Assembly (NCBI RefSeq): GCF_003952165.1
Contig: NZ_RXFT01000005.1
Span: forward strand, 1 to 64,000
Origin: Variovorax guangxiensis
GTDB taxonomy: Bacteria; Pseudomonadota; Gammaproteobacteria; Burkholderiales; Burkholderiaceae_C
DNA length: 64,000 nucleotides
Direction of reading: 5' to 3'
Shown here: in pieces, positions 8,384 to 40,590 of the stretch
Position numbering within the stretch: the stretch's first letter is position 1
How the letters are laid out: every line of letters begins with the position of its first letter
Made by a program: the position numbers and the translations under genes
The notes under the pieces: model-generated
The model's database searches: none
Seen by the model: the letters and a program-made list of their open reading frames with translations, nothing else
Told to the model about the DNA's origin: nothing

Positions 8384-8482
8384 GGGACACCGCGGAACCG
8401 GCTCTGCCGGGCCGTCGGTGTCGCCCCCGGCGAGGGGGTTGGCGAAGCGACACGAAGTGCGCGAGGCCTGGGGGAGTGCCAT
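8384..8482 (-). repeat. 3'-anchored structured repeat, copy A
   Basis: First of four ~97-base copies. Read on the minus strand it begins two bases after the tpsB stop codon: GGCACTCCCCCAGG, then GCGCACTTCGTGTCGCT, a C-run/G-run stem, and CCGGC-AGA-GCCGG enclosed by GACACC...GGTGTC. It lies inside the 162-base gap between tpsB and tpsA. In the outer stem this copy has G:C where copies B and D have A:T, a compensatory change. Confidence 0.85.
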
Positions 8483-8483
8483 T

Positions 8484-10223
8484 TCAGAACGCCTTGATGA
8501 GCTGCACGAAAAGGCGCGGGTTGCGGCCCCCGCCGTCGGTCTGCGCCGGCGGCGTGCCGGCGCGCCAGGCCAGCGTGGCATTGATCGAGAAATTGCCCGG
8601 GCGCGACCAGCTCAGGCCCACCCCGTAGCCGCGCAGGCTGTGGCTGTTGACGCCGTCGTAGGGCATCGGGTTGCGCACGATCTTTCCGTGCGCGGCGTCG
8701 TAGAACAGGAAGGGCGTGAGCTCCTCGTTGAGCGACCAGCGCCATTCGACGGTGCCGATCACGCCCTGGTCCACCAGCAGTTCGCCGGAAGGGTAGGCAC
8801 GCACAGCACGCGCGCCGCCGAGCGCGAGCTTCTCGGACGCGTCGAGGTTCTTGCTGGCCCACTGGCCTCCGACCGACAGGTACAGCGAATGGCGCGGCAC
8901 GATCGACTGCAGGCGCGAGAACTGGAAGCTCAGCTTGGTGAAGCCGCCTTCGGTGCGGTGGCCGGTGATGCCGCGGTCGAAGTCGCGGCTCTCCGGGTCG
9001 CGAATGGAGAGGTTGCCGTGGTACAGGGTGCCGGAGCTGGCCCAGTAGCCGCCGCCGAGCAGCTCGTCGCGGCGTTCCCAGGTCCAGCCCAGGCTCAGGC
9101 CGTTGACGCGCTTCTTGGAGTTGAAGTCGGCCGCGCGCAGCTCGTCGGTGAGGTCCTTCACGTCCACGCCCAGGCGCAGGAACAGGTTCTGCTGGCGCTG
9201 GCGGATCAGCGGATAGCTCAGCGAGAAGTCGAGCACGTTGGCGCGCCCGCGCGCGTCGAGGTCGGCGAACTGCCCGCCCAGCTCGTAGCTCACGCGCGAA
9301 AGGCCCACGCCCGCGCGCAGCCCGCTGGTGCCGATGGGCGCCTCGTAGGCGATGCGGCCGAACTGCAGCGCGTTGCTGTTGGAGACCATCAGCCGCATGT
9401 CGAGGTTGTCGCCGATGCCGAAGGGGCTGAGCCAGCGCGCCGTGCCGCCCAGGCGGTAGCGGCCCGACTCCCTGGTGCCGTGGTTGTCGCCCTCGGCCGT
9501 GAAGGCCCATCGCGGCGCGGCGGCCACCTCGACCGAGAGGTCGGTGGTGCCGGGCTGCGTGCCCTCCTGCAGGCCCGAGGACACCTTGATGCCCGGCTGG
9601 TCCGACAGCAGCAGCATCGCGCGTTCATAGTCCGGCGCGCTCACCGCCGCACCGGGCTGCAGCGGCGCGAGGAAGCCGCGCACGCGCGACTCGGCAATGG
9701 GCGCATCGGGAGCGACGGTCACGTCGACCTTGCCGAGGCGGCCTTCGATCACGCTGATCTCGACGATCCCGTCGCGCACGGTCTGCACCGGCACCACGGC
9801 CTGCGCGAGGAAGTAGCCGCGCTCCTTGTAGCGCGCGGTGATGGCCTTGGCGAGCTCCTCCAGGTCGGAGAGCGTGACGTCGCGGCCGATGTAGGGGCCG
9901 GTGATGGCTTGCAGCTCCTCGTTGCTCAGCGCCTTCACGCCGTTGAGGCGCAGGTCGTTGAGCTTGAAGGTCGCGCCGGCGGCGCCGCCCGTGTTGCGCG
10001 GCGGCGCGGGCAGGCTCTGCGGGGCTACTGCCCCCGTGGGTGCCTGCGCAATGGGGCGGTCACAGCTTCCGCAAGGGTCCTTGGTCGGCAGCAGCTGTGT
10101 GTCGTTGTTGTCCGCTTCGGCGGCATGCGTGCGCTGGGCCGCGACGAGCAGCGTCGCGCTGACCAGGGCCGTGACCGCGAAGGCGATCGGCGTGATCGGC
10201 GTGGGGCGTTGGCAGGATTTCAT
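8484..10223 (-). CDS. TpsB outer-membrane transporter (ShlB/FhaC/HecB family)
   Basis: Outer-membrane pore that recognises the TPS domain of the adhesin and exports it. The 579-residue protein starts with a signal peptide (cleavage near THAAEA). A Pro-rich linker with an unusual CGSC pair (residues ~51-54) follows, then a POTRA-type segment (~88-165, FKLNDLRLNGVKALSNEEL) and a 16-strand-type barrel. The barrel includes the L6-loop motif ARAVRAYPSGE and ends in Phe, the usual barrel-assembly signal. Its ATG comes one base after the stop of the CHAT gene (TGAAATG), so the two are probably co-translated. Repeat copy A directly follows its stop. Confidence 0.93.
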   Translation of the reverse strand: MKSCQRPTPITPIAFAVTALVSATLLVAAQRTHAAEADNNDTQLLPTKDPCGSCDRPIAQAPTGAVAPQSLPAPPRNTGGAAGATFKLNDLRLNGVKALSNEELQAITGPYIGRDVTLSDLEELAKAITARYKERGYFLAQAVVPVQTVRDGIVEISVIEGRLGKVDVTVAPDAPIAESRVRGFLAPLQPGAAVSAPDYERAMLLLSDQPGIKVSSGLQEGTQPGTTDLSVEVAAAPRWAFTAEGDNHGTRESGRYRLGGTARWLSPFGIGDNLDMRLMVSNSNALQFGRIAYEAPIGTSGLRAGVGLSRVSYELGGQFADLDARGRANVLDFSLSYPLIRQRQQNLFLRLGVDVKDLTDELRAADFNSKKRVNGLSLGWTWERRDELLGGGYWASSGTLYHGNLSIRDPESRDFDRGITGHRTEGGFTKLSFQFSRLQSIVPRHSLYLSVGGQWASKNLDASEKLALGGARAVRAYPSGELLVDQGVIGTVEWRWSLNEELTPFLFYDAAHGKIVRNPMPYDGVNSHSLRGYGVGLSWSRPGNFSINATLAWRAGTPPAQTDGGGRNPRLFVQLIKAF

Positions 10224-10224
10224 T

Positions 10225-12369
10225 TCAGCCTCCCACCGTCAAACGCCAGTTGCCGATCAGGTTGAACGGCGCCCAGAAGAAGGGATGGGACATCTTGGGA
10301 TCCTTCAGCACCGCGAGCTGCCCCGCCTGCATGGCCTTCTGGATGTCGCGGCCCTTGGAGAGTTCGCCGTAGAGCGTGCTCATGAGCACGGCGGTGGCGT
10401 CGTCCGACACCGGCCACAGCGATGCGATCAGGCTGGAGCTGCCGGCCGAGAGGAAGGAGCGCGTGAAGCCCAGCACCTCGTCGCCCTGCGCGATGCGCCC
10501 GAGGCCCGACTCGCAGGCCGAGAGCGTGACCAGCGCGGTGCCGTCCATCGGCAGCCCGAGGATCTCGTGCGCCTCCAGGAAGTTCTGCTTGCCGCCCTCG
10601 TTGGCCAGCAGGATGCGCGAGTACAGCGGATCGACCGCGTCGGCCTCGGCGTGTGCCGCCACGTGCATCAGCGGCGAGCGCGCGGCCACGTCGCGGAACT
10701 GGGTCTTGGTGGCGGCCGCGCCCATGTACACCGTGTTGCGCGGGAAGAGCCGCGCGAGCTGCTTCACCTCGGTCTCGGCGCCGGGCAGGTCGTACTTGTC
10801 CTCGATGCGAGGATTGCCGAAGGCGGTGAGCGATGCGTTCACGCGCGGCGTGCGCTGCGCCAGCTGCACCGCGATGCTCATCGACGGCGCCACGGCCACC
10901 GGATGCGTCTCGATGATGTAGCGCCCGTCCAGCCGCAGCGCCTGGAACGGCAGGTAGTGCAGCGGCCCGTGCGGCACCACCACCAGCCGCTGCCCCGGCG
11001 CGAGGCCCAGCGGCCCGAGCAGCGCGGCGCCCAGCTTGTCGGCGTTGGTGATGGCGGCGCGGCGTCCGCGCACGATGGAATTGCGGAAGGTCTCGACCAG
11101 CTCGTTGAGCTCGTCGCGCTTCACCGCCACCGTCTTCTCCGCGATGCTGTCGGGGCTCACCACCCACACCACGAGGCGGTCGGGCAGCGAGTGGAACTGC
11201 ACCACGCGCTCGTCGGCCGCCAGCGTGCGCTGCAGCGTGGCGAGGTCGACGGTGTTGGCGGCCTGCTCGTTGATCTTCGCGCGCCCGCGCACCGCGTCGA
11301 GCAGCGCGCGCGAGCGGCTGTGCTCGCTCACCTCGAAGGCTTGGCGCGCATCGCCCGCGTCGCTGTAGATGGACACGCCGCGCTCGAACACCGTCTGCAG
11401 GTCCGAGAACAGGCCCATCTTGAATTCCTCGCTGCGGAACCTGGCGCGCACCTTGTCGACATCGCCCAGCGCGCGGCCCACGGCTTCGGCCGCCGCCTGC
11501 TTCTGGCCCAGCGCGAGTTCGCTGCGCGCCACGCCGTCCCAGGCCCATAGGCGGTAATACTCGGTGTCGGCACCCACCTGCCGCGCGGTGAGCGCGCGGT
11601 AGGCATCGCGCGCCTCGGCCGGCTTGTTCTCGGCCAGCAGCAGCCGGGCGCGGGTGCGGTCGAGCTGCGCGGTGAGCGGTGCATCCTTGGGCGGCGCCAT
11701 GCTGCCGAGCACCTCGCGCGCCCGAGCGGGGTCGCCCGATTCGATGAGCGCATTGACCAGCGATGCCTGCACCAGCGGCGCATAGCGCTGCGAACTGTTG
11801 GCCAGCGCCTCGTCATAGCTGAGCACGGCACCCGAATAGTCGCCGCGGCGCGAGCGCACGTCGCCGATCACCTTCTGCACCGGGCCGACCACCAGCTTGG
11901 GATCGCGCGCCTGATGCTTGAGAGCCTCGCGTGCGAACTCCTCGGCCTTCTCGAGCTGGCCCGAGTAGCTGTAGACGATGGCCAGGTCGCGGTTGGCCAT
12001 GGCCATCAGGTTCGGATCGTTGGTGGCGTCGGCCAGGTGCAGCGCCTTGCTCGCGGCGCGCACGCTCTGGCGGAACTCGCCCGCCTCGGCAAGCGCGACC
12101 GCCTGGCTGCAGTACTGATAGCCGGAGAGCTTGACCGAGTCCTGCCCGTAGAGCACCGCGCCTTCGCTGGTCAGCGCCAGAAGGGTGTCGGTGTCCGCAA
12201 GGCGGGCCTGCTCCGCCTTGCTGGCGGCGGCTTCGGCGCTCGTCGCCTGCTGCGCCGGTGCCGGAAGGCTCCAGCCCATCAGAAGAACGCCAGCCAAACC
12301 GAGCGCACCTGCGATGCCAGCACGATGACGTGCAGGGCGCTCCCTTCCCCATCTCGAAAACCACGCCAT
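10225..12369 (-). CDS. TPR-CHAT caspase-like protein, predicted exported
   Basis: CHAT domains are clan CD (caspase/separase-fold) peptidases. The 714-residue product has an N-terminal signal-like segment (basic MAWFSRWGRERPARHR, then a hydrophobic stretch ending PAPAQ). About 350 residues of helical TPR-like repeats follow (for example AREALKHQARDPKLV, QTVFERGVSIYSDAGD), then a C-terminal CHAT domain (~410-714). The expected dyad is present: His573 in MHVAAHAEAD and Cys619 in LVTLSACESG. It is the first gene of the operon CHAT-tpsB-tpsA and touches tpsB. A role in processing or releasing the adhesin, or in quality control of the secretion pair, is inference from position. Export is predicted from the N-terminus; whether it is periplasmic or lipid-anchored is unclear, as there is no lipobox. 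Confidence 0.88.
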   Translation of the reverse strand: MAWFSRWGRERPARHRAGIAGALGLAGVLLMGWSLPAPAQQATSAEAAASKAEQARLADTDTLLALTSEGAVLYGQDSVKLSGYQYCSQAVALAEAGEFRQSVRAASKALHLADATNDPNLMAMANRDLAIVYSYSGQLEKAEEFAREALKHQARDPKLVVGPVQKVIGDVRSRRGDYSGAVLSYDEALANSSQRYAPLVQASLVNALIESGDPARAREVLGSMAPPKDAPLTAQLDRTRARLLLAENKPAEARDAYRALTARQVGADTEYYRLWAWDGVARSELALGQKQAAAEAVGRALGDVDKVRARFRSEEFKMGLFSDLQTVFERGVSIYSDAGDARQAFEVSEHSRSRALLDAVRGRAKINEQAANTVDLATLQRTLAADERVVQFHSLPDRLVVWVVSPDSIAEKTVAVKRDELNELVETFRNSIVRGRRAAITNADKLGAALLGPLGLAPGQRLVVVPHGPLHYLPFQALRLDGRYIIETHPVAVAPSMSIAVQLAQRTPRVNASLTAFGNPRIEDKYDLPGAETEVKQLARLFPRNTVYMGAAATKTQFRDVAARSPLMHVAAHAEADAVDPLYSRILLANEGGKQNFLEAHEILGLPMDGTALVTLSACESGLGRIAQGDEVLGFTRSFLSAGSSSLIASLWPVSDDATAVLMSTLYGELSKGRDIQKAMQAGQLAVLKDPKMSHPFFWAPFNLIGNWRLTVGG

Positions 12370-12660
12370 TGGACCCCCGCGTCTGGCCCTGTGGGCCCGC
12401 CGCGGCGGACCATCGACGTCGCGGGAATGCGCGCCGTTCAGGCCTCGGGGAGAAAGTCTAGGAGCGGCCCCCAGGCGCGCCTATTCGCAATACGGTCTAG
12501 GGCTAAAGAACTAACAGGCAGCCGAAGGGCCTGCCCTGCGCATTCGGTCACGGCGCGCCGCAAAGGGTGCGGGGGGCTTCGCGGCGAATACACATCGGCT
12601 TACATAATGCGCGCCTCAGAGCCCGCGCATGAACGCAGCGGGCCGCATCAGGGAGGTTCC
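12370..12660. other. Divergent intergenic region upstream of the CHAT operon
   Basis: About 290 bases separate the CHAT operon (leftward) from a small Cys-rich gene (rightward). The region must hold the operon promoter. I can point to a REP-like hairpin (12459-12483), an A+T-richer patch around 12486-12520, and TACATAAT (12600-12607), which could be a -10 box for the rightward gene. No convincing -35/-10 pair could be assigned for the operon. Confidence 0.4.
12459..12483. repeat. REP-like hairpin, TAGGAGCG arms
   Basis: TAGGAGCG (12459-12466) and CGCGCCTA (12476-12483) form an inverted repeat with one mismatch around CCCCCAGG. It shares TAGGAGCG and a GCCCCAGGCGC-like core with 20096-20129. 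Confidence 0.35.
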
Positions 12661-12941: not shown

Positions 12942-12954
12942 CCGAGATCGCCGG

Positions 12955-22331: not shown

Positions 22332-22727
22332 ATGTCACACAGCCCCTTCAGCGTACAGGTCGAACCCCGCTACCTTGCCGACCAGTCCTCGGCCAAGGAC
22401 AGCATCTACACTTTCTCGTACACCGTCACCATCACGAACACCGGTCCGGTGTCCGCCCAGCTGATTGCCCGCCACTGGCTGATCAACGACGCCTCGGGGC
22501 ATTCGCAGGAGGTGAAAGGACTGGGCGTGATCGGCCAGCAGCCGCTGCTGGCGCCCGGCGAGACCTTCCGCTACACCAGCGGATGCCGCCTGCAGGCCTC
22601 GAGCGGCACGATGCACGGCAGCTACTTCGTGGTGACCGAGGAAGGCGAGCGCTTCGACGTGCCTATTCCGATGTTCGTTCTCGAAGCCGACATAGGCGGC
22701 GCTCCCGTCTCCCGCGTCCTGCACTAG
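22332..22727 (+). CDS. apaG: ApaG domain protein
   Basis: A 131-residue fibronectin-III-like protein conserved in proteobacteria. Signatures are FSVQVEPRYLADQSS, YTVTITNTG, ARHWLINDASG and YTSGCRL. E. coli apaG sits with apaH and ksgA and has a poorly defined role in cation and nucleotide homeostasis; here it is next to rpe. The length matches the family. Repeat copy B begins at its stop codon. Confidence 0.95.
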   Translation: MSHSPFSVQVEPRYLADQSSAKDSIYTFSYTVTITNTGPVSAQLIARHWLINDASGHSQEVKGLGVIGQQPLLAPGETFRYTSGCRLQASSGTMHGSYFVVTEEGERFDVPIPMFVLEADIGGAPVSRVLH

Positions 22728-22823
22728 GCACTCCCCCAGGCTTCGCGCACTTCGTGTCGCTTCTCCTTCCCCCTCGCCGGGGGCAACACCGGCGGCCCGG
22801 CAAAGCCGGTTCCGCGGTGTTCG
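22725..22823 (+). repeat. 3'-anchored structured repeat, copy B
   Basis: It starts within the apaG stop codon (TAGGCACTCCCCCAGG) and fills most of the gap to the next gene at 22848. It shows the GCGCACTTCGTGTCGCT block, the C-run/G-run stem and CCGGC-AAA-GCCGG within AACACC...GGTGTT. Orientation relative to the finished gene is the same as in the other copies. Confidence 0.85.
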
Positions 22824-22847
22824 CCGCATAGATCCCCACTCACACCC

Positions 22848-24833
22848 ATGGCTGCCGCATCGCGCGACTTGCAGGGGCTGCTTGCCGGCCTCGATCCCAC
22901 GGCCGATGTGGCGCAGCGCCACATCTGGCTCATCGACATCTTCGACTGGGTGCGCGGCGACCGCGCCTCCCCGCAGGCGGCCATCGGCCGCGTGCAACTG
23001 CTGCTGGACGCCGTCGAGGCGCGGCCCGAGCTGCGCGAGCGGCTGCGCGCCTGGTGGCGCGTCTTCACACAGACAGTCGACCTGACGGCGCTGCTGGCCG
23101 ACTACGGCTTCGCCCCGCGCACCGCCTTCGCCAGCGAGCTGAGCGAGCGGCTGCGCCGCAAGATCCTGCCCGGCACGCCCGAGACCACCGACGCATCGGA
23201 CCTGTTCCGCATGGTGCTGCCCGGCGTGTTCGACGCGGGCTGGATCGCCCTGCTCGACGAGACGCAACTCGGCCGCATCGGCGCCCTGCTGGCCGACGCC
23301 GCACTCGATGAAGACGGCGCGCCGCGCTGGCGCCACACGGTGATGGACGCCGTCACCTACTGCAGCAGCCAGGTCGTGGCCGCCGGCTTCTCGCCCGAGC
23401 TGCGCCTGCGCATGAGCACCGACGCGGTCGGCGAAACACGCCCCTTCCACGCGCTGATGGCCGACCTCGACGAACTGCGCGAGCAGATGTTCGACCGCCC
23501 CGGCGAGCCGCACGACGAAGAGGCGCTGCAGGCCGCCTTCGTGGCCTTCCGCGACCGGCTGGACGCCTGCCGCGCCGGCGCGGCCTCGGTCTACACGCAC
23601 CTGGAAGACAACGGCATCTCCGTCGGCCTGGTGTTCCGGCTGCGCCAGCTGCGCGAGCGGGTGCTGCGCATCCGCGAGCTGCTCGACTGCCTGATGGCGG
23701 CCAACCCCGGGCCCAGCGTGGCGCGGCTGGTGGGCCGGCTGGTGCTGGCCGGCGGCGAGCGCAACAGCATCCGGGCGCTGATCGCCTCCAACTCCTCGAT
23801 GCTGGCCGCCAAGGTGACCGAGCGCAGCGCCGAGACCGGCGAGCACTACATCACCCGCGACCGTGCCAGCTACCTGCAGATGGTGAAGAAGGCGGCTGGC
23901 GGCGGCGCTTTCACTGCCCTCACGGTGCTGTTGAAATTCGGCATCTACGCTCTGGGGCTGTCGGCCTTCTGGAGCGGCCTGAGCGCGGGGCTGATGTACG
24001 CGGCCAGCTTCGTCGCCATCCAGCTGCTGCACCTGACGCTGGCCACCAAGCAGCCCGCGATGACCGCGCCGGCAATGGCGGCGCGGCTTCGCGACATCAG
24101 GTCGGACGCGGGCGTGGACGATTTCGTCGACGAGGTCGCCAACCTGGTGCGCTCGCAGGTGGCGGCGGTGCTGGGCAACGTGCTGGTGGTGGTGCCGGCG
24201 ATGGCGGCTGTCACGCTGCTGTTCCAGTTCGCGCTGGAACGGCCGCTGCTGGACGCGGCCCATGCGGCGGCCACGCTGAAATCGCTTTCGCTGGCCGGGC
24301 CGACCGCGCTTTATGCGGCAATCACCGGCATCCTGCTGTTTTCGGCCAGCATCATCGCCGGATGGACAGAAAACGCCTTTGTCCTGCATCGACTGGACTC
24401 TGCAATGCGTTACAACCCCCGCATCGGCGCTTTTCTCGGCGCCGCACGGGCTCGTCGCTGGGCCGATTTCATGCGCACCAACATTTCAGGCTTCGCCTCC
24501 AACATCTCGCTGGGACTCATGCTCGGGCTGCTGCCCGCGTTCGCGGGTTTCTTCGGGCTCGGGCTGGACGTGCGGCACGTGACACTGTCGGCCGGACAGA
24601 TCGCCGCCGCGGCGGCATCCACCGGCCTGGCTGTGTTGCAGCAGCCTGCGCTGTGGTGGGCGGTGGCGGCGATCCCGGTCATTGGCGCGCTCAATGTGAG
24701 CGTGAGTTTCTACTTCGCTTTCCGCCTGGCGCTGCGCGCGCACAGCGTGAGCCTCGGTGACCGCGCGCGCATCCGCAGCGCGATCTGGGCCCGCTGGCGC
24801 AGCCGTCCGGTGAGCTTTTTCCTTCCTGGATGA
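22848..24833 (+). CDS. Gcr-family ('site-specific recombinase') membrane protein
   Basis: A 661-residue protein of the family named SpecificRecomb after Neisseria gcr. The N-terminal ~340 residues are soluble and helical ([25 protein letters not shown]). The C-terminal half carries about six hydrophobic segments (for example [37 protein letters not shown]). I see no tyrosine- or serine-recombinase catalytic motif, so the family name should not be read as an activity. Its stop overlaps the start of the antiporter gene (ATGA, 24830-24833), which is in turn coupled to ybdK. That points to a shared membrane or stress role. Confidence 0.8.
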
Positions 24834-26101
24834 ATTTGACGAGCTTCTTCAACGATCTGCTGGGTTTCTGGTCCGAGTGGGTACGCCCCTCGGCCGGCCT
24901 GCCCACCGTGCTGTGGTCGCTGCTGCTGGCGGCGGCAGCGGCCTCCGGCCATCTCGTGCAACGCTACCTCGGGCTGCCCAAGGTGATCGGCTACTCGCTG
25001 GTCGGGGCGGTGGTGGGCTTCGCCGGCTTCGAGGGCGCGATCTGGCCGCTGCGCGGCATCAGCCTCTTCCTGCTCGAGCTCGGCGCGGCCGTGGTGCTGT
25101 TCGAAGCCGGCGGGCGGCTGCCGCTGCGCTGGTTCCGCCACAACCCGATGGTGCTGGTGCAGAGCCTGCTCGAAGCCACGCTCACCTATTTCGGCGTGTA
25201 CTGGATGCTCACGCTGCTGGGCCTGCCCGAACCGGTGGCCAACCCGATCGCGCTGATGGCCATCGTCGCCTCGCCGGCGGTGCTCAGCCGCGTGATCATC
25301 GACACCCGCGCCGCCGGCCCCGTGACCGAGCGCGCGATGACGCTGGCCACGCTCAACACCTTCTATGCGCTGGCGCTGGGCTACGCGCAGGCCGGGCTGA
25401 TCGAGCGCGCACCGCAGACCATGCTGCAGAAGCTCTACCCGGTGGCGGTGGTGCTGGGCCTGTCGTTCGTGGTGGGCGCGATCATGGCGCTGGCGCTGCG
25501 CTCGGCGCTGCGGGTGATGAGCCCGTCGAGCGAGAACACCTCCATCCTGCTGCTGGCGATCATCGCGGCCGGCGCGGCGCTCACCGCGCACGTGGGCGGC
25601 TCCGCACCGCTGGCAGCGCTGATCGGCGGCGTGCTGCTCAAGACGCTCAACCCCAAGCCCTGGGCCTGGCAGCGGCAGCTGGGCACGGCCTCCTCGCTGC
25701 TGACCATGCTGATGTTCGTGCTGGTGTCCATCGTCGCGGCGCAGGCCGACTGGACCCTGCCGGTAGCCAGCGTGGTGCTGGCCGTCATCGGCATCCGCCT
25801 GCTGACCAAGATCGCCGGCGTGGCCGTGGCCAACCCCGGCAGCGGCGCGAGCTGGAAGCAGGCTTTCTGGGTCGGCTGCGCGATGTCGCCGCTGTCCTCC
25901 ATCGCACTGCTGATCGCCTCCAACTTCGCCACCGCCTCGCCGCTGCTGGGCACGATGATCACGCAGGTGGCGCTGCCCTCGATCCTGCTGATGGAGGTGG
26001 TTGGCGCGGTGCTCGCCACGCTGGCCATCCACGCGGTGGGAGAAAGTTCGGTGCCTTGGGCGCCACGGGCCTTCAGCATCACCGAGGACACGCAGCGATG
26101 A
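24830..26101 (+). CDS. CPA2-type cation:proton antiporter (Kef-like)
   Basis: Inner-membrane antiporter of 423 residues with about 12 hydrophobic segments. The N-terminal region [20 protein letters not shown] matches the CPA2 family, and [20 protein letters not shown] resembles the KefB/C and Na+/H+ core. There is no C-terminal RCK/TrkA-N nucleotide domain, so it lacks the glutathione-gated module of KefB/KefC. It sits between the Gcr-like gene and ybdK with ATGA overlaps on both sides. The transported ion, K+ or Na+, cannot be told. Confidence 0.85.
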
Positions 26102-27306
26102 GCACCACCGCAACCACCCCCATCGACCCGGACAGCGACGACGTGCGCTCGGCGCCGCTGCCTGCCGACCCAGCGAGCCGCGCGGTCAAGCTGGAGCCCT
26201 TCAACAAATCGGAGGCGCTCTCGCTCGGCGTGGAACTCGAGCTCCAGCTCGTGAACACGCACGACTACGACCTCGCCCCCTACGCCGAGGACATGCTGCG
26301 CCTGATGGCCCAGACCCCGTTGCCCGGCAGCGTGGTGCCCGAGATGACGTCGAGCATGATCGAGATCTCGACCGGCATCTGCCACTCCGCGCAGGACGTG
26401 ATCACGCAGCTCTCGCCGATCCGCGAGGCGCTGATCCGCAACGCCGACAAGCTCAACATCGCGGTGGTGGGCGGCGGCACGCACGCCTTCCAGCAGTGGC
26501 ACGAGCGGCGCATCTACGACAAGCCGCGCTTTCGCGAGCTCTCGGAGCTGTACGGCTACCTGAGCAAGCAGTTCACCATCTTCGGCCAGCACGTGCACAT
26601 CGGCTGCCCCGACGCCGACGCGGCGCTGCTGATGCTGCACCGCATGTCGCGCTACATCCCGCACTTCATCGCGCTGTCGGCGTCGTCGCCCTTCGTGCAG
26701 GGGCAGGACACGCAGTTCGACTCGGCGCGGCTGAACTCGGTATTCGCATTCCCGCTCTCGGGCCGCGCGCCCTTCACGCTGAGCTGGAAGGAGTTCGAGG
26801 CGTATTTCGAGCGCATGACCCGCACCGGCGTCGTGCGCAGCATGAAGGACTTCTACTGGGACATCCGCCCCAAGCCCGAGTTCGGCACCATCGAGATCCG
26901 CGTGTTCGACACGCCGCTCACGGTGGAGCGCGCCGCCGCGCTCGCCGGCTACGTGCAGTCGCTGGCCGCGTGGTTCCTGCAGGAGCAGCCCTTCGAGCCG
27001 ACGGAAGACGACTACCTCGTCTACACCTACAACCGCTTCCAGGCCTGCCGCTTCGGCCTCGACGCCGTGTACGTCGACCCGGCCACCGGCCAGCACATGC
27101 CGCTGCGCGACCACATCCTGATGACGATGACCCAGCTCGAATGGCACAGCGAGGCGCTCAACGCCACCAGGGCGCTGGGCGAGCTGCGCACCAGCGTGGA
27201 GTCGAACCGCAACGACGCGCGCTGGCTGCGCGAGAAGCAGGGCAAGGAACGGCTGCTGGCGGAGGTCGTGCGGCAGGCGGCGCTGCGGTTCCGCGGAGCG
27301 GCTTAG
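26098..27306 (+). CDS. ybdK: YbdK-type carboxylate-amine ligase (GCS2 family)
   Basis: A 402-residue ATP-dependent ligase of the glutamate-cysteine ligase 2 family. Family marks are [11 protein letters not shown] (Glu metal ligands), [37 protein letters not shown] and [11 protein letters not shown]. coli YbdK has weak glutamate-cysteine ligase activity in vitro, and its physiological substrate is open. The ATG overlaps the antiporter stop. A link between a thiol-type ligase and a Kef-like antiporter is suggestive, because Kef systems respond to glutathione, but this is inference. Confidence 0.92.
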
Positions 27307-27404
27307 AGGCTCCCTCTCGCTGCTTAGTGCAAACAGGGATATTCGGCGCAATTTGACGCATCGGCCACGATCTTTGTGCGTTCGGTATCCCTTATCCTTG
27401 CCGC

Positions 27405-28544
27405 ATGGCAACCCAAGCACTCATCAACCCAACGCTACTGCGATGGGCACGCGAGCGTCTGGGCCTCAGCCTGGATGACGCTGCGCAAAGTGCGAACGTA
27501 AAGCCGGAGCGCCTTGAAGCCTGGGAGAGCGGAGAGAGCCGCCCTACGTTTCGCCAAGCTCAGCACCTGGCACACGCTTTTCACGCTCCTTTTGGATATT
27601 TGTTCCTCCAAGAGCCTCCGGAGGAACTGCTCCCACTCCCCGACCTAAGAACCGTTGGTGGAGTACCCGTCCCGCGACCCAGCATAGATCTTCTCGACAC
27701 AGTGCGCATCGCACTGCAACGGCAGGAGTGGTACTTGGAATACCAGAAGGATCACGGTCGCGACCCACTGCCTTTTGTTGGGCGATTCACTGCGAACTCG
27801 CCGGTGGTAGAAGTCGCCGCAGATATCAGAAGTGTCTTGAACGTGGCCGTCGAACAAGGTCAGCGTACCTGGGAAGCTTACTTTCGAGATCTCATTGAAG
27901 CAGCCGAGCGTGTGGGCATCCTCGTCATGCGAAGCGGCATTGTCGGCAACAACACTCGTCGAAAGCTCGACGTCAGCGAGTTCCGTGGATTTGCGATCAG
28001 CGATCCGCTGACTCCCGTGGTCTTCATCAATTCTGCTGATGCACCAGCCGCCAGGCTTTTCACTTTGATGCACGAATTGGCGCATATCTGGATCGGTGCC
28101 AGCGGCATTTCGAGCGTTGCCCCGGGCAATAGTCGCCGAGAGGAGACTTTCTGCAACGCGGTCGCTGGAGAGTTTCTCGTCCCTCGAGAATTGTTCTGGC
28201 AGCTTTGGCACGCAGGTCCTGCAGAGTTGAGCCTTCTGGTGGCGGAGCTGGCTCGGCGCTTTCACGTCAGTCGCCTTGTCATCATGCGTCGCGCTTTCGA
28301 TCTGGGACTCATCGATCAAACAACGTACACAGACCACTACCTAGCAACTCTTGCAGAGTTCAGAACCCAAGATAACAACGGCGGAAATTTCTATCGAGCT
28401 GCCGGCGCAAAAAATAGCCGGCGTTTCGCACAGGCGGTAGTGACAGAAGCGCTCAGCGGCCGCTTGCTTCTTCGAGAAGCGGGACGCTTGCTCGGTGTGC
28501 AACCCAACAAGATTCGGGAGTTCGCGGAGCAGATCGGCGTATGA
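27405..28544 (+). CDS. XRE HTH plus ImmA/IrrE metallopeptidase, antitoxin-like
   Basis: The 379-residue protein fuses an N-terminal XRE-type helix-turn-helix (~8-62, RWARERLGLSLDDAAQSANV) to an ImmA/IrrE-type zinc peptidase. The active site is HELAH at 223-227, followed by a candidate third ligand in RREETFCNAVAGEFLVP. A C-terminal helical segment resembles the DNA-binding ends of this family. It likely represses its own promoter and controls the toxin-like gene that follows, whose ATG overlaps its stop (ATGA, 28541-28544). G+C is visibly lower than around it: the line 27841-27900 has 31 of 60 G+C, against 40 of 60 at 26641-26700. This fits horizontal transfer. A TTGACG at 27353 could be a -35 box. 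Confidence 0.9.
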   Translation: MATQALINPTLLRWARERLGLSLDDAAQSANVKPERLEAWESGESRPTFRQAQHLAHAFHAPFGYLFLQEPPEELLPLPDLRTVGGVPVPRPSIDLLDTVRIALQRQEWYLEYQKDHGRDPLPFVGRFTANSPVVEVAADIRSVLNVAVEQGQRTWEAYFRDLIEAAERVGILVMRSGIVGNNTRRKLDVSEFRGFAISDPLTPVVFINSADAPAARLFTLMHELAHIWIGASGISSVAPGNSRREETFCNAVAGEFLVPRELFWQLWHAGPAELSLLVAELARRFHVSRLVIMRRAFDLGLIDQTTYTDHYLATLAEFRTQDNNGGNFYRAAGAKNSRRFAQAVVTEALSGRLLLREAGRLLGVQPNKIREFAEQIGV

Positions 28545-29038
28545 GTTATCTCCTCGATGCGAACACACTCATCGAAGCGAAGAATCGCTATTACCAGATG
28601 CGCTTCTGCCCTGGCTACTGGACTTGGCTCACTCGGAACAAGGATGCAGGCAGGTTGGCGAGCGTGGAGAGCGTGAGTACTGAACTGCGGCGAGGCAACG
28701 ACGAGCTCGCGCAGTGGGTAGTGACGCAGTCGGATCTGTTCTTGTCAGAGTCAGATGAAACGACGCAACATGCTTTTGCCGAGATTGCCGCACACGTCGC
28801 CGATCAAGCAGCGACCATGAAAGCCGGTGCGTTGGAAGAATTTCTCAGCGGAGCCGACCCGTGGTTGATCGCCAAAGCACGCGTCACTGGATACATCGTG
28901 GTAACTCACGAGCGGCTGAACATGGAGAGCCGCCGAAAATTTCTGATCCCCAACGTGTGTTCGCACTACGGCGTTGAGTGCATCAATACATTCGACATGT
29001 TGAATCGGCTGGAAGCTCGCCTCGTTCTAGCGGACTGA
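28541..29038 (+). CDS. DUF4411 PIN-fold putative toxin
   Basis: The 165-residue protein matches the DUF4411 pattern: MSYLLDANTLIEAKNRYY at the start, then WTWL and a conserved GADPWLIAKA. PIN-type acidic residues are Asp6, Glu48 and Asp106, with a late Thr/Glu motif (VVTHERLN), as expected for a metal-dependent RNase. DUF4411 genes usually follow an HTH-ImmA/IrrE gene, as here. Toxicity and RNA cleavage are inferred from the fold and the pairing. It shares the lower G+C of its partner. Confidence 0.88.
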   Translation: MSYLLDANTLIEAKNRYYQMRFCPGYWTWLTRNKDAGRLASVESVSTELRRGNDELAQWVVTQSDLFLSESDETTQHAFAEIAAHVADQAATMKAGALEEFLSGADPWLIAKARVTGYIVVTHERLNMESRRKFLIPNVCSHYGVECINTFDMLNRLEARLVLAD

Positions 29039-29110
29039 ACTACGAGTGGCTCCAGCGAGGATCGTGCCGGGAGTTCCCTCCGGCGCCGCAGCGCTTATGC
29101 TCTCACCCCC

Positions 29111-30067
29111 ATGGGTGAATTCGACCTGATCGCGCGCTACTTCAAGCGCCCCGCCACGCGCTCGCCGCTGGGCGTGGGCGACGACTGCGCATTGCTCGCG
29201 CCGGCCGCGGGCATGCAGCTCGCCGTTTCCTCGGACATGCTGGTCGAGGGACGGCACTTTCTTTCCACCGTCGAGCCGGCCCGGCTGGGCCACAAGGCGC
29301 TGGCGGTGAACCTCAGCGACCTGGCCGCCTGCGGCGCGAAGCCACTGGCCTTCACGCTCGCGCTGGCGCTGCCCGGCGTGGACGAGCCGTGGCTCGAAGG
29401 CTTCTCGCGCGGCCTGCTCGCGCTGGCCGACGCGCACGGCTGCGAACTGGTAGGCGGCGACACCACGCGCGGCCCGCTCAACATCTGCATCACGGTGTTC
29501 GGCGAAGTGCCGGCCGGCGCGGCGCTGCTGCGCTCGGGCGCGCGCGCGGGCGACGACATCTGGGTGAGCGGCACGCCAGGCGAGGCTCGGCTGGCGCTCG
29601 AAGTGTTCCGGGGCACGATCGCGTTGCCGGCGGACGCCTTCGATACGGCGCGCAGGCGCATGGAGCAGCCCACGCCGCGCGTGGCGCTCGGGCAGGCCCT
29701 GCGCGGCATCGCCACTTCGGCGGTGGACGTGAGCGACGGGCTGATCGGCGACCTGGGCCACATCCTCGCGTCGAGCGGCGTGGGCGCCACGCTCGACGTG
29801 GACGCGGCCACCGCGCTGATCTCGGTCGACACCGGCAACCTGGGCGAGGAACTGCGCCGCACCTGCGCGCTCTCGGGCGGCGACGACTACGAGCTGGTCT
29901 TCACCGCGCCCGCCTCGGCGCGCAACGCGGTCGGGCAGGCAGGCATGGACAGTTCAACGCGCGTCACGCGCATCGGCCGCATCGAGGCCGACGCCGGCCT
30001 GCGCATCGTCGACGCGGCCGGCGCGCCGGTGTCACAGCGCTTCGGCTCGTTCGACCACTTCGTCTAG
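29111..30067 (+). CDS. thiL: Thiamine-monophosphate kinase
   Basis: Final step of thiamine diphosphate synthesis (TMP + ATP to TPP); 318 residues. Signatures are MGEFDLIARYF, LGVGDDCALL (Mg-ATP Asp pair), VSSDMLVEGRHF, VGGDTTRGP and SGGDDYELVFTAP. No ribosome site is evident before the ATG. In many betaproteobacteria thiL is followed directly by pgpA and cinA; here they lie 6 kb downstream with accessory genes between. Repeat copy C fills the gap after it. Confidence 0.97.
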   Translation: MGEFDLIARYFKRPATRSPLGVGDDCALLAPAAGMQLAVSSDMLVEGRHFLSTVEPARLGHKALAVNLSDLAACGAKPLAFTLALALPGVDEPWLEGFSRGLLALADAHGCELVGGDTTRGPLNICITVFGEVPAGAALLRSGARAGDDIWVSGTPGEARLALEVFRGTIALPADAFDTARRRMEQPTPRVALGQALRGIATSAVDVSDGLIGDLGHILASSGVGATLDVDAATALISVDTGNLGEELRRTCALSGGDDYELVFTAPASARNAVGQAGMDSSTRVTRIGRIEADAGLRIVDAAGAPVSQRFGSFDHFV

Positions 30068-30090
30068 TTTTCCTGCAATCCCTCTCTTTC

Positions 30091-30190
30091 GGGAAACACC
30101 GTGGAACCGGCTTTGCCGGGCCTCAGATGTTGCCCCCGGAAGGGGGTTGGCGAAGCGACACGAAGTGCGCGCAGCCTGGGGGAGAGCCTA
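30091..30190 (-). repeat. 3'-anchored structured repeat, copy C
   Basis: Read on the minus strand it starts at the stop codon of the DUF3053 gene (TAGGCTCTCCCCCAGG) and runs toward thiL. The C-run/G-run stem is tighter here (CCCCC-UUCC-GGGGG). The outer stem contains one G:U wobble (AACATC with GGTGTT). Confidence 0.85.
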
Positions 30191-30898
30191 TCCTCCGCGC
30201 ACCACGGCCTGCATCTTCTGCTGAGCCGCGTTGATGGCAGCCGACTGGCCGTTGAGCTGCTGCAGCATCTTGTTGAGCTCGGCCTGCACCGTCGGGTCGG
30301 TCACGGCGATGCTGCTGCCGCTGATCTGGATCTTCGACTTGTTCTTCTCCATGAAGTCGCCGATGGCCAGCGCGCTGTCGAACACGGTGTCGAGCGCGGG
30401 GAACACTTCCTTGAAGGTGGCCGAGGGCGTGGTCACGGTCTTGGCGTAGGCCTTGTCGTAGACCTGCTTCAGGTCGTCGGGCTGCTTGAGCTGCGCGTGC
30501 GCGGCGTCGGCCCTGGCGGACTGCTGGTCGAGCGCGGTGCGCAGGCCGCCGAGGCCGTCCTTCGCGGCCTTGAGGTCGTCGCGGCGCGCGGGCAGGTCGG
30601 CGATGGAGCGCAGCGCGCCCTTGGCCATGATCTGCGTCATGGGCTGGCTCACCGACTTGTTCATGCCCTCGTTGAAGTCGGTGATCACCGCGTAGTGCTG
30701 CGCGTAGTCGCCGAACGAGGCCTTTTCTTCGGCCGTGGGCACCGGCACGCGCAGGCCGGGCTTGTCGAGCACTCGGGTCTGCAGGAAGGAGATGAAGGCC
30801 TTGCGCTGCTCGGCCTCCTTGTTGCCGCAGGCCACCAGCGCGAGGCTGAAGGCGACGAGGAGCGACATGGCCCCGAGACGTTGAATGAAAGTTCTCAT
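30188..30898 (-). CDS. DUF3053 (YiaF-like) lipoprotein
   Basis: A 236-residue lipoprotein. A signal peptide ends in the lipobox LVAC (Cys24), followed by GNKEAEQRKAFISFLQTRV typical of DUF3053. The rest is helical and Lys/Ala/Gln rich. The function of the family is unknown; a periplasm-facing membrane lipoprotein is expected. It is convergent with thiL and shares its 3' gap. Confidence 0.88.
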   Translation of the reverse strand: MRTFIQRLGAMSLLVAFSLALVACGNKEAEQRKAFISFLQTRVLDKPGLRVPVPTAEEKASFGDYAQHYAVITDFNEGMNKSVSQPMTQIMAKGALRSIADLPARRDDLKAAKDGLGGLRTALDQQSARADAAHAQLKQPDDLKQVYDKAYAKTVTTPSATFKEVFPALDTVFDSALAIGDFMEKNKSKIQISGSSIAVTDPTVQAELNKMLQQLNGQSAAINAAQQKMQAVVRGG

Positions 30899-34704: not shown

Positions 34705-34714
34705 GCTACTGCTT

Positions 34715-36918: not shown

Positions 36919-36955
36919 GCATCATCGATTCCTCTTCTTCCCTTTCTCCTCTCCC

Positions 36956-37468
36956 ATGCAACTGAAGAAAGCCCTCGCGGACCACGACACGCCCGAACTG
37001 GTCGTGGTGCTGGCCGAGCTGCTGCAGAAAAAGGGCTGGATGCTGGCCACCGCCGAGAGCTGCACCGGCGGGCTGATCGGCGCGGCCTGCACCGACCTGG
37101 CGGGCTCGAGCGCGTGGTTCGAGCGCGGCTTCATCACCTATTCCAACGAGGCCAAGACCGAGCTGCTTGGCGTGGACGCCGGCGTGATCGCCGCGAACGG
37201 CGCGGTCAGCGAGCCGGTGGCGCGGGCCATGGCCACGGGCGCAATCGCGCATTCCCCGCCCTCGCGCGTGGCGCTGGCCGTAACCGGCGTGGCCGGCCCC
37301 ACGGGCGGCACGCCCGACAAGCCGGTGGGCACGGTGTGGTTCGGCTGGTCGGTCGATGGCGCGGTGCGCACCGAGCGCCGCCGTTTCGATGGTGACCGGG
37401 CCACGGTGCGCGCGGCGACGGTGCACCACTCGCTGCAGACGCTGGTCGAGCTGCTGCTCGCGCGCTGA
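36956..37468 (+). CDS. pncC: CinA C-terminal-type nicotinamide-nucleotide amidohydrolase
   Basis: A 170-residue PncC-like amidase that recycles NMN to nicotinate mononucleotide. It has the core ATAESCTGGLIGAACTDLAGSS, the YSNEAKTELLGV segment and VTGVAGPTGGTPDKPVGTVW. It lacks the N-terminal MoCF-like domain of full CinA. It sits 37 bases behind pgpA, the usual neighbour. Confidence 0.95.
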   Translation: MQLKKALADHDTPELVVVLAELLQKKGWMLATAESCTGGLIGAACTDLAGSSAWFERGFITYSNEAKTELLGVDAGVIAANGAVSEPVARAMATGAIAHSPPSRVALAVTGVAGPTGGTPDKPVGTVWFGWSVDGAVRTERRRFDGDRATVRAATVHHSLQTLVELLLAR

Positions 37469-37477
37469 GCCTGGAAT

Positions 37478-38662
37478 TCAGGCCGTCATGAAGTCGGCCA
37501 GCGGCCGGCGCGGCGCGGGCGGCACCGGCGCCATCGGATAGCCGAGGCGGCACATCATCTGCACCGTGGGGCTGCGCCTGTCGCGCGGCAGCGCGGTGCC
37601 CAGCAGCATGTCGTGCACGGCGGCGTGGTGCGGCGCCATTTCGGCGAATTCCTCCAGCGGCTGGCTCATCGGGTGCATGCCCAGGCCCAGGTCGGTGGCG
37701 CGCAGCTGCTGGCGCACGTAGGCGCGGCCTGCCGCGATCTGCTCGGTGCGGCTGTTGCCGCGCGTGCTGAGCCAGATGAAGCCCATCGCGGTGTTGGCCT
37801 GGTCCTCGAAGAGCTGCAGGGTCTGGCGGAACGACAGGCTCTGCTCGGAAGCCGGCGTGCGGCGGTCGAACTGGCCCAGCGCGACGGCGATGCGCAGTGC
37901 CGGGTCGTTCAGCGAGAAGCCGTCGCGGTGCGCGAGGATCTCCTGCGGGCCGACGCGCAGCAGCCGCAGGTTTTCCATCGCCGTGCCGGGCGTGGTGAGC
38001 TCCACCCGGGCGGCCTCGGCGCAGAGCTTGCGCAGCGGCAGCACCCGCGCCATGTCCACCGTTCCGGCCGAGCTCACCATGCCGCCCGTGGGCACCATCG
38101 AGGCCAGGCCCTGCAGGATGTCGGCCGACACCGGCCGCGTGAGATCGAAGCGCTGCTTGGGCGTGCGCCGCCGCAGCACCTGCGCGAAGAGCGGATCGGG
38201 CACGCCGCCGCCCGCCAACCGCAGCCGCGCCACCGGAATGTGCGGCCAGCGCAGTGGCTCGCCGCTCAGCTCGCCCTGCGGCCACAGCTGCACGCTGGCC
38301 TGCAGGCCGTGCTGGGCGAGCGCCATCACCAGCAGCTCGATGAAGGCGCCATGGCCGATGAGCACCTGGCGGCCGAAAGGGTCGGTCTCGGGCTGCACAC
38401 GCTCCCGGTCGCAATACACCACGATGGCGTCGGGCTCGCGCAGGTCGACCAGCCAGGGCTGGCGGTTGTAGGCGGTGGGGGCGGTGACGGCGTAGGCGAC
38501 CGCGCGCTTGCGCAGGTCGGGCTCGTCGCCGGGGCCGTTCCATATCTCCAGCGCGGCGGCCGGCACTTCCGAGTTCAGCCACCAGGTCGCCAGCGCGGCC
38601 GCACCCGCCGCCACGACAACGCCGCCTCCCAGCAGCCGGACAAAGTTTCTACGCTCATCCAT
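37478..38662 (-). CDS. Tat-exported Acg/nitroreductase-family FMN protein
   Basis: A 394-residue protein with a twin-arginine signal (MDERRNFVRLLGGG plus a hydrophobic stretch). The body resembles the Acg-like nitroreductase fold: TAPTAYNRQPWLVDL near the FMN-binding region, IGHGAFIELLVMAL, and late GLGMHPMSQPLEEF. Family members bind flavin but often lack clear reductase activity. The upstream in-frame codon at 38698 would hide the Tat motif, so 38662 is chosen. It is divergent from a LysR gene. Confidence 0.82.
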   Translation of the reverse strand: MDERRNFVRLLGGGVVVAAGAAALATWWLNSEVPAAALEIWNGPGDEPDLRKRAVAYAVTAPTAYNRQPWLVDLREPDAIVVYCDRERVQPETDPFGRQVLIGHGAFIELLVMALAQHGLQASVQLWPQGELSGEPLRWPHIPVARLRLAGGGVPDPLFAQVLRRRTPKQRFDLTRPVSADILQGLASMVPTGGMVSSAGTVDMARVLPLRKLCAEAARVELTTPGTAMENLRLLRVGPQEILAHRDGFSLNDPALRIAVALGQFDRRTPASEQSLSFRQTLQLFEDQANTAMGFIWLSTRGNSRTEQIAAGRAYVRQQLRATDLGLGMHPMSQPLEEFAEMAPHHAAVHDMLLGTALPRDRRSPTVQMMCRLGYPMAPVPPAPRRPLADFMTA

Positions 38663-38740
38663 TGCGCGGATTATCGAAAGCGGGCCACCGGTTAACAATG
38701 GCTTAAGCTTCCATAACTGCTATGCAGAACTGAATACCCG

Positions 38741-39637
38741 ATGAGAGCGGACAACGACCTGGGCTTCGACTGGCGGCTGGTGCGCGCATTCCTGGCCGCG
38801 CTCGACCACGGCAGCCTGCTGAAGGCCGCGCGCGCGACGGGTACCAGCCAGCCGACGCTGGGGCGCCATATCGCGGAACTGGAGTCGCAGCTGGGCGTGA
38901 TGCTGTTCGAGCGCACCGGCCGCGGCCTGCAGCCGACAGCCATGGCCGAGCGACTGGCGGACTCGGCCCGCGCCATGGAAAGCGGCGCGCAGGCGCTATC
39001 GCGCAGCGTGTCGGGCGCCAGCGCGCAGACGGCGGGCTCGGTGCGCATCTCGGCCAGCCAGGCCACCGCGCGCCAGATGCTGCCGAGCCTGCTGGTGCGC
39101 ATGCGCCAGGAGCTGCCCGAGATCCAGGTCGACCTGGTGTCGACCAGCGAAAACAGCAACCTGCTGCAGCGCGAGGCCGACATCGCCATCCGCATGTCGC
39201 AGCCCACGACGGCCACGCTGGTGGCGCGCCGCATCGGCAGCTTCGCGCTGGGCGCCTTCGCCCATTCCGACTACCTGCGCCGCCGGGGCACGCCACGGCA
39301 GACCTCCGACCTGTACCGGCACGACGTGCTGGGCTACGACAGCATCGACACCATCATCCGGATGTCGGCCCAGCTGGGCACGCCGCTGCAGCGCGAGCAT
39401 TTCTGCTTCCGCACCGACGACATGGGCGCCTACTGGGAGGCGCTGCGCCAGGGCATGGGCATCGGCTTCGTCAGCGAATCTCTGGCACGCACCGACAGCG
39501 CCGTGGTGCGGGTGCTGCCGCAGCTGAAGATCAGGTCGCTGCCGGTGTGGCTGGCGGTGCACCGCGAGATCCGCACCGACCGCCGCATCCGCGCCGTCTA
39601 TGATTTCCTGGCGCGCAACATCCCCGCGTCCATCTAG
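38741..39637 (+). CDS. LysR-type transcriptional regulator
   Basis: A 298-residue regulator with the winged helix at ~10-70 (WRLVRAFLAALDHGSLLKAA, TSQPTLGRHIAELESQLGV). The effector domain (~95-295, SVRISASQATARQMLPSLLV) is of the kind that follows short-chain or aromatic signals. It is divergent from the Tat nitroreductase-like gene, its likely target, with a 78-base gap. Confidence 0.93.
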   Translation: MRADNDLGFDWRLVRAFLAALDHGSLLKAARATGTSQPTLGRHIAELESQLGVMLFERTGRGLQPTAMAERLADSARAMESGAQALSRSVSGASAQTAGSVRISASQATARQMLPSLLVRMRQELPEIQVDLVSTSENSNLLQREADIAIRMSQPTTATLVARRIGSFALGAFAHSDYLRRRGTPRQTSDLYRHDVLGYDSIDTIIRMSAQLGTPLQREHFCFRTDDMGAYWEALRQGMGIGFVSESLARTDSAVVRVLPQLKIRSLPVWLAVHREIRTDRRIRAVYDFLARNIPASI

Positions 39638-39675
39638 ACGCCGCGCCTAGCCCACAACCAACGCCAAGAGGCCTC

Positions 39676-40170
39676 ATGACCGCAGCCACCAATGCCCAGA
39701 CCATCGAGCGCTTCTACAGCGCCTTCGCCAAGCTGGACGCCCCCGCCATGGAAGCCTGCTACGCACCCGATGCGGTGTTCGACGACGAGGCTTTTTCGCT
39801 GCGCGGGCGCCGCGAGGTGGGCGGCATGTGGCGCATGCTGGCCGGCGGCACCAGGGCCAAGGGCGCCGACGTGTGGAAGCTGACCTGGCGCGACGTGAAG
39901 GCCGACGACAGCACCGGGAGCGCCCACTGGGACGCGCACTACCGCTTCACCGCCACCGGCCGCATCGTGGACAACAGCATCGACGCGCGCTTCACCTTCA
40001 CGCCCGACGGGCTGATCGCCACGCACCGCGACAGCTTCCCCTTCTGGACCTGGTCGCGCCAGGCGCTCGGCACGCCGGGCCTGCTGCTCGGCTGGTCGCC
40101 CATGCTGCGCAAGAAGGTGCGCGCCACCGCCGCAGCCAACCTCGCAACCTTTCTCGCACGACAGCCATGA
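39676..40170 (+). CDS. SnoaL/NTF2-like protein
   Basis: A 164-residue alpha+beta barrel protein: AQTIERFYSAFAKLDAPAME, the DAVFDDEAFSLRGR region and WDAHYRFTATGRIVDNSIDA. The fold serves as isomerase, cyclase or binding domain, so no activity can be named. AAGAGG precedes the ATG. Its stop overlaps the next start (ATGA). Confidence 0.85.
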   Translation: MTAATNAQTIERFYSAFAKLDAPAMEACYAPDAVFDDEAFSLRGRREVGGMWRMLAGGTRAKGADVWKLTWRDVKADDSTGSAHWDAHYRFTATGRIVDNSIDARFTFTPDGLIATHRDSFPFWTWSRQALGTPGLLLGWSPMLRKKVRATAAANLATFLARQP

Positions 40171-40490
40171 GCAACACCAACGACACCGCCCTCGCCTTCT
40201 CCAACAACGAAGCCCAGCACCGCTACGAGGCCACGCTCGACGGCAAGCTGGCCGGCTACGCCGAATACAACCTGCTGACCGACGCGATCATGTTCACCCA
40301 CACCGAAGTGCTGCCCGAGTTCGAGGGCAAGGGCGTGGGCTCGGGCATCGCGAAGCACGTGCTCGGAGAGGCGCGCGCCAAGGGGCTGCATGTGATTCCG
40401 GTGTGCCAGTTCATCGCGGGCTACATCCGCAAGCACCGCGACTATGTCGACCTGGTGCGCCCCGACATCCAGCGCGCTTTCAAGATTTGA
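40167..40490 (+). CDS. GNAT-type (YidJ/Yjcf-like) small N-acetyltransferase
   Basis: The 107-residue minimal GNAT fold has the acetyl-CoA loop LPEFEGKGVGSGIAKHVL and the ending IPVCQFIAGYIRKHRDYVDL. This matches the COG2388 group, which includes human GTLF3B-type proteins. The substrate is unknown. It is translationally coupled to the SnoaL-like gene. Repeat copy D begins four bases after its stop. Confidence 0.88.
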   Translation: MSNTNDTALAFSNNEAQHRYEATLDGKLAGYAEYNLLTDAIMFTHTEVLPEFEGKGVGSGIAKHVLGEARAKGLHVIPVCQFIAGYIRKHRDYVDLVRPDIQRAFKI

Positions 40491-40493
40491 ACA

Positions 40494-40590
40494 GGGCTCG
40501 CCCCCAGGCTGCGCGCACTTCGTGTCGCTACGCCAACCCCTACCGGGGGCAACACCTGCGGCCCGGCAGAGCCGGTTCCGCGGTGTTCCC
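40494..40590 (+). repeat. 3'-anchored structured repeat, copy D
   Basis: It begins four bases after the GNAT stop (GGCTCGCCCCCAGG) and fills the convergent gap up to the stop of the MFS gene (40594). The stems CCCC-UACC-GGGG and CCGGC-AGA-GCCGG inside AACACC...GGTGTT are intact. Confidence 0.85.

Follow-up and report, generated by a model that had tools for sequence, protein, structure and literature searches.

The first 64,000 nucleotides of contig NZ_RXFT01000005.1 of Variovorax guangxiensis (the whole stretch of DNA that was analyzed, here called the window) contain four copies, A to D, of a structured repeat of about 100 bp that sits at the edges of coding sequences. We found that about 9 in 10 copies of this repeat lie directly after a stop codon and in the sense of the gene that ends there, while a minority lie antisense directly before a start codon. 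The initial annotation of this DNA described a four-copy element; four copies are indeed found in the window, but they are merely its share of a large genome-wide family. On the basis of its copy number, distribution, position and polarity, covariation, and presence/absence polymorphism with empty sites, we consider the repeat, with a probability of roughly 0.55, to be a family-wide, non-autonomous, mobile hairpin repeat that resembles the repetitive extragenic palindromes (REPs), is gained and lost at coding-sequence edges through a putative moving enzyme, and would act in transcripts as a stop-proximal structure.

Copy number and distribution of the repeat

The core pattern CCCCCAGGCTNCGCGCACTTCGTGTCGCT, with up to 3 mismatches, occurs at 123 places in the 7,184,833-base genome to which the window belongs, and a reversed-pattern control gave 0 places. 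From the DNA around 100 of these 123 places (791,396 bases in 82 pieces) we recovered 106 copies with nhmmer, which form the own-genome set used below. The conserved unit is about 95 to 109 nt long, and the median pairwise identity of the 103 full own-genome copies is 0.87. A fifth copy (C38:64070) begins 70 bases past the right end of the window.

Among the same-genus genomes, the own genome included, 35 of 37 contained the core pattern, at 1 to 257 places each, and two were without any; the pattern was also absent from all 24 genomes from other families of the order. The Variovorax genome with 257 places has four core matches in a row with 132-base spacing (G009:C3:340810-341234). The initial annotation had proposed that a covariance model be built and related genomes be searched, and when this was done in a sample of the host's family, the covariance model (R1) had matches in 222 of 299 genomes, representing 117 of the 141 genera covered (E <= 0.001; 12 candidates per genome were scored, and the E-values are rough). 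A distribution restricted to the genus is thereby ruled out. Among the matches listed, a close form of the repeat is present in Variovorax, Polaromonas, Rhodoferax, Curvibacter, Xylophilus, and Hylemonella. Since the best matches in many genera were weaker (1e-10 to 1e-14), diverged forms are likely elsewhere in the family, and, judged by eye, the middle hairpin differs in other genera with its folding kept.

Position and polarity relative to genes

For these analyses, the element start was defined as 5 nt upstream of CCCCCAGG, and genes of the own genome were called with a purpose-written Markov gene caller. A same-strand gene lies upstream of 98 of the 106 own-genome copies, and in 92 of them its stop codon is -5 to +7 nt from the element start; we refer to such copies as locked. 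Sixty-six copies lie in sense between genes of the same direction, 32 between convergent genes, 7 in antisense between genes of the same direction, and 1 between divergent genes, so that tandem gene pairs hold 66 sense versus 7 antisense copies (p = 4e-13). Where the spacer exceeds 13 nt, all 61 locked copies are within 13 nt of the stop, an arrangement with P ~10^-37.6 under uniform placement, and 0 of 106 copies extend deeper than 40 nt into a called gene.

This placement is also seen outside the own genome. In relatives and other genera, 105 of 115 copies had a stop codon that ended -8 to +12 nt from the element and closed a run of 100 or more open codons, whereas shifted windows gave 22 of 684 and the antisense side at the 3' end gave 14 of 114. 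For pattern-found loci in named genomes, the corresponding values were 96 of 114 copies, 32 of 668 shifted windows, and 7 of 109 on the antisense side. Both sets consist of best-scoring or pattern-chosen copies, not random ones, and overlap slightly; copies too near a locus end were left out (1 from the 115-copy set and 7 from the 114-copy set), and the 115-copy set counts L223:9362-9465 as unlocked though its letters show a start right after TAG. The stop-codon lock and single polarity that the initial annotation had noticed in four copies thus hold genome-wide and in other genera.

Among the 14 own-genome copies that are not locked, 4 come second in a tandem of two repeats inserted head to tail; 3 lie in antisense orientation, 2 to 5 nt upstream of a start codon; 1 is found behind a tRNA-Leu gene; and 1 abuts a signal recognition particle (SRP) RNA gene on the opposite strand. 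Nine of the 18 exceptions in the 114-copy set are antisense and within 11 nt of an ATG (by eye), three of them before the same gene, and 3 of the 10 exceptions in the 115-copy set are antisense before an ATG. In the antisense copies, the reverse complement of the repeat places GGGGGTGAG or a comparable run close to the ATG, and by eye this run resembles a ribosome-binding site. Because of these exceptions before start codons, we state the rule as follows: the 5' end of the repeat abuts the edge of a coding sequence, and its 3' hairpin points away.

We also made two observations on individual neighbors of the repeat. An SRP RNA gene (L090, 14159-14255, - strand) abuts a repeat copy with its 5' side, with -10-like letters at the junction. 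In three genera, the repeat is antisense directly before the start of the RNase G gene, rng (L012, 1431-1540; L181, 2568-2676; L280, 4075-4183). A general link to RNase G was rejected, as a strong match was found upstream of rng in just 1 of 30 loci from 30 genera.

Filled and empty orthologous sites

We compared a 20-kb syntenic stretch of the window in 20 relatives (for L230, just 4.3 kb was covered; copy A is outside the stretch). All six repeat sites in it, namely, B, C, D, E, F, and the site of a shortened copy in genome G029, are polymorphic for presence or absence, and in all six the repeat is in sense, directly after a stop. Sites were judged filled by flank spacing, and at site E in G007 the letters are those of an unrelated stretch. 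Site B is filled, decayed, or empty among the relatives, with decayed copies in G033, G366, and G031. Site C is empty in several relatives, in which two convergent stop codons abut (TGATCA); the insert separates both stops, and, judged by eye, the length of neither gene is changed. By flank spacing, site D is empty in 11 relatives and filled in 5 others; it is filled in G029, and the empty neighbors of this genome include G278, G380, G033, and G378. At site E, the repeat follows the end of a gene that, by its motif, resembles secA. At site F, G033 alone carries the repeat, and 11 relatives are empty. The shortened copy in G029 (L223:9362-9465), read directly, starts right after a TAG that has 687 open codons before it.

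We conclude that the repeat is mobile, because of this presence/absence polymorphism with empty sites and because copy number ranges from 0 to 257 per genome within the genus. The initial annotation had argued that a random mobile repeat would not keep its polarity; as an argument against mobility this is not supported, since on this evidence the repeat is mobile and its polarity is kept. Overall, the interpretation given there is partly supported.

Conserved structure and covariation

RNAalifold predicted three hairpins from alignment A3, which contains 102 of the 106 copies (three partial copies and one cut by a tandem copy were left out). For the covariation count, three outer pairs were added by hand to this structure. 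Standard pairs were found in 98.8% of 2,955 pair cells, and 10 of 29 pairs had changes on both sides, which amounted to 85 double-change cells, a number reached by 0 of 500 shuffles and compared to at most 18 cells for slid versions of the structure. The 3' hairpin covaries, and pairing is weaker at the outer positions of the middle hairpin (18-20 with 44-46), at 93.4% with 20 unpaired cells. In the window, one pair of copy C is broken (A-A, columns 76/97 of A3) and another is U-G, and copy A shows the change from AACACC/GGTGTT to GACACC/GGTGTC that the initial annotation described as compensatory, a reading that the covariation of the stems supports. Folding energies of the sense strand compared to dinucleotide shuffles gave z values of -1.65 (A), -1.85 (B), -0.48 (C), and -2.18 (D). 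Single-sequence folding of the four copies is therefore unremarkable, and the case for the element rests on copy number, position, and covariation.

An RNA stem is expected to tolerate G-T far better than A-C, while a DNA hairpin should be indifferent. In the 3' stem, the 219 rows of alignments A3 to A5 contain 21 G-T pairs and 16 A-C mismatches (two of these rows are the same place twice, one being a G000 copy in the 115-copy set). A further 25 rows, which are those of the 124 rows of alignment A6 that do not match the search pattern (this pattern fixes one arm), contain 9 and 7, for totals of 30 and 23; 6 of the 123 places in A6 are also in A3 to A5. In a position-based control with 16 tRNAs from the same DNA, we counted 12 G-T versus 2 A-C, and the difference from the repeat has p = 0.06. 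Because G-T is hardly commoner than A-C, the sequences lean toward a 3' stem that is kept by a DNA-level constraint; a count without the wobble tolerance expected of a stem selected purely as RNA is a lean in that direction, not proof.

Within 20 nt of the stem end, TTTTT was found in 0 of 103 full copies and TTTT in 2 of 103, in agreement with the initial view that the element is not a plain intrinsic terminator. The first C-run (A3 columns 12-16) is near-invariant though unpaired in the consensus structure. We rejected a two-state RNA switch in which C-run 1 and C-run 2 compete for the G-run, as the local hairpin is better by a median of 3.7 kcal/mol; the two folds are within 2 kcal/mol of each other in 17 of 102 copies, and the mean pairing probability of the G-run is 0.06 with run 1 and 0.69 with run 2.

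The four copies in the window and their host genes

The four copies, their strands, and their shared blocks are present in our alignments as initially annotated, and Pfam agrees with the identities assigned to the four host genes (Table 1). The distance from the same-strand stop codon to the element start is 4 nt for A, 0 nt for B, 0 nt for C, and 5 nt for D.

Table 1. Repeat copies in the window and the genes on their 5' sides
Feature	Positions	Strand	Context	Evidence
Repeat copy A	8384..8482	-	Between tpsB and the downstream tpsA-like gene	Alignments
Repeat copy B	22725..22823	+	Directly 3' of the apaG stop codon (TAG)	Alignments
Repeat copy C	30091..30190	-	Directly 3' of the DUF3053 gene stop (TAG); convergent with an AIR-synthase-like gene	
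Repeat copy D	40494..40590	+	5 nt past the GNAT gene stop (TGA); convergent with an MFS gene	
Two-partner secretion transporter, ShlB/TpsB-type	8484..10223	-	5' of copy A	Pfam (ShlB/POTRA_2)
apaG	22332..22727	+	5' of copy B	Pfam PF04379
DUF3053 protein	30188..30898	-	5' of copy C	Pfam PF11254
GNAT acetyltransferase	40167..40490	+	5' of copy D	Pfam PF14542

Copy A lies between both genes of a two-partner secretion pair at 2916-10223, which consists of a TPS-domain exoprotein and the ShlB-type transporter. Directly 3' of apaG and copy B, positions 22848-24833 encode a protein that matches the Pfam family "site-specific recombinase" (PF10136).

Candidate movers and known families

Of 41 Variovorax genomes, 38 have a single Y1_Tnp (RAYT-like) gene each, for example, at L106 (G000:C40:69554-69883). 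The flanks (1.5 kb per side) of 30 of these 38 loci were searched, and none contained the core of the repeat (up to 6 mismatches) or its tail (up to 4 mismatches). Genomes G018, G022, and G035 are without a Y1_Tnp match yet have 41, 19, and 15 pattern places, respectively (G018 and G022 are less than 90% complete), and G024 and G027 have a match but no pattern place. The RAYT was therefore rejected as the mover, as there is no flanking repeat in the 30 loci searched and no agreement between Y1_Tnp presence and copy number.

Rfam gave 0 matches at the gathering cutoff in the window; a search of 22600-30300 at E-values up to 5 gave one subthreshold overlap, with mir-602, at 21.2 bits compared to a cutoff of 90. 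Neither keywords nor four stretches of the repeat's own sequence led to a description of this family in the open-access literature.

Weighing the explanations

We favor a mobile hairpin repeat without an enzyme of its own that would be copied to the edges of coding sequences. The shape of its hairpins may be maintained chiefly at the DNA level, through a moving enzyme that reads them in single-stranded form or through correction of one arm by the other; such upkeep could account for the scarcity of intermediates beside the double changes and for G-T not being preferred to A-C. Once transcribed, a copy would be an immediate 3' untranslated structure beside the terminating ribosome and, by analogy, might slow release or decay, as has been described for stop-proximal REPs in Escherichia coli, or block 3'-5' exonucleases. 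The position of the repeat is within the distance at which REPs are active, and by the same analogy an effect on the upstream message is plausible. Copies in other places or orientations may either not be made, if insertion is aimed at gene ends, or be lost. Several findings weigh against this explanation: the ratio of G-T to A-C is not significantly unlike that of the small tRNA control; the median copy identity makes a recent burst not evident; inspection by eye of the alignments and the six polymorphic sites, without a systematic search, revealed no evident target-site duplication or terminal inverted repeat; no mover was found, as the Y1 transposase gene is not flanked by the repeat and its presence does not match the copies; and translation cannot be the whole rule, since one copy follows a tRNA gene.

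A regulatory RNA kept by vertical descent is a rival explanation. Here the repeat would be a 3' untranslated element selected as RNA, serving as an exonuclease barrier or as a processing or protein-binding site, and differences between species would reflect loss. The stop lock and polarity are consistent with such an element, as are its presence in 117 of 141 genera, the covariation, which is also seen between relatives at site B (GGCGG/CCGC in one form, AGAGG/CCTC in the other), and the gene end that, by eye, four loci of four genera share (L126, L141, L146, and L148). We nevertheless regard it as unlikely, given the single-lineage gains (site F in G033 only and site D in G029 amid empty neighbors), the 0 to 257 copies within one genus, and the count of 30 G-T versus 23 A-C. 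A Rho-dependent terminator module, in which a C-rich, G-poor entry tract lies where ribosomes leave the mRNA and a hairpin behind it shields the 3' end left by trimming, would explain the placement directly after stop codons and the missing T-run, and it agrees with the first 52 nt of the repeat in composition alone (on average 47% C and 22% G). Much of this C-rich tract is predicted to be paired, however; in tandem pairs, the start of the next gene is often no more than 60 nt away from the element, so that a new promoter would have little space, and copies within tandem pairs are not depleted (26 of 84 gene ends with the element are convergent, compared to 126 of 494 other gene ends). We judge a module of this kind to be improbable.

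If the repeat were purely selfish, with no effect in RNA, the lock would reflect only a target preference of a putative mover enzyme. The presence/absence polymorphism, the decayed copies at site B, and the antisense copies before start codons all fit, as do an A/T-rich leader and the enrichment of TAA among stops followed by the repeat in the own genome (27 of 92, compared to 42 of 514 other genes). DNA alone does not mark an in-frame stop codon, however, and insertion within genes or far from their ends would be expected to be common; just 14 of 106 copies are elsewhere, most with another gene-edge explanation, and we find this account improbable. Insertion could also be aimed by gene expression: a mover that recognizes sites where ribosomes or RNA polymerase stop (a stop codon, the end of an RNA gene or, on the other strand, a start codon) would land copies within about 13 nt of a coding-sequence edge and in one fixed orientation, each giving its gene a ready-made 3' structure. 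This proposal is tentative, and we think it doubtful.

If the lock is due to targeting, bacteria would have a mobile repeat able to recognize the end of a gene to within a single codon, and we know of no described repeat with such specificity. If it is due to selection, the repeat would be a common, unannotated layer of 3'-end control in 117 of the 141 genera sampled from the family. In either case, closely related species that differ in whether a given gene has the element provide a natural experiment on stop-proximal repeats, translation, and mRNA decay.

Comparison with known systems

Like an intrinsic terminator, the repeat has a GC-rich hairpin just 3' of a stop codon; it differs in having no T-run, three hairpins, a conserved primary sequence, and mobility. 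Like an integron attC site, it is an imperfect hairpin with a conserved bulge that lies directly after a stop in the sense of the gene. In contrast to attC sites, its genes are ordinary chromosomal genes and the empty sites lack just the repeat; the attC core boxes are also absent from its consensus.

The ERIC and YPAL elements of enterobacteria, as described in PMC2229807, resemble the repeat as mobile intergenic repeats of about 100 to 170 bp that fold as RNA and have empty sites. ERIC is reported there to have an orientation-dependent, ribosome-linked effect on upstream mRNA, and YPAL to have target duplications of 3 to 26 bp. Compared by description, the repeat differs from ERIC in that terminal inverted repeats are present in ERIC and none is evident here, and from YPAL in that no target duplication was seen by eye.

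The closest likeness is to the REPs, which the repeat (123 places) matches as a high-copy extragenic hairpin near 3' ends. In PMC3733652, the RAYT-associated GTAG/CGTC REPs are described as found largely where neighboring genes converge or run in the same direction, no more than 20 bp from 3' ends, and GTAG REPs as often supplying a TAG stop codon; in PMC12306157, REPs within 15 nt of a stop are described as stalling ribosomes. The repeat differs in its length and structure (about 100 nt and three hairpins, compared to 20 to 40 bp), in its consensus, in which no GTAG/CGTC tag was seen when read by eye only, and in that the Y1 transposase gene of Variovorax is without flanking copies of it. It also differs in its near-fixed polarity and its 13-nt position window, whereas 446 of 4,072 REPs in E. 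coli lie within 15 nt of a stop according to PMC12306157.

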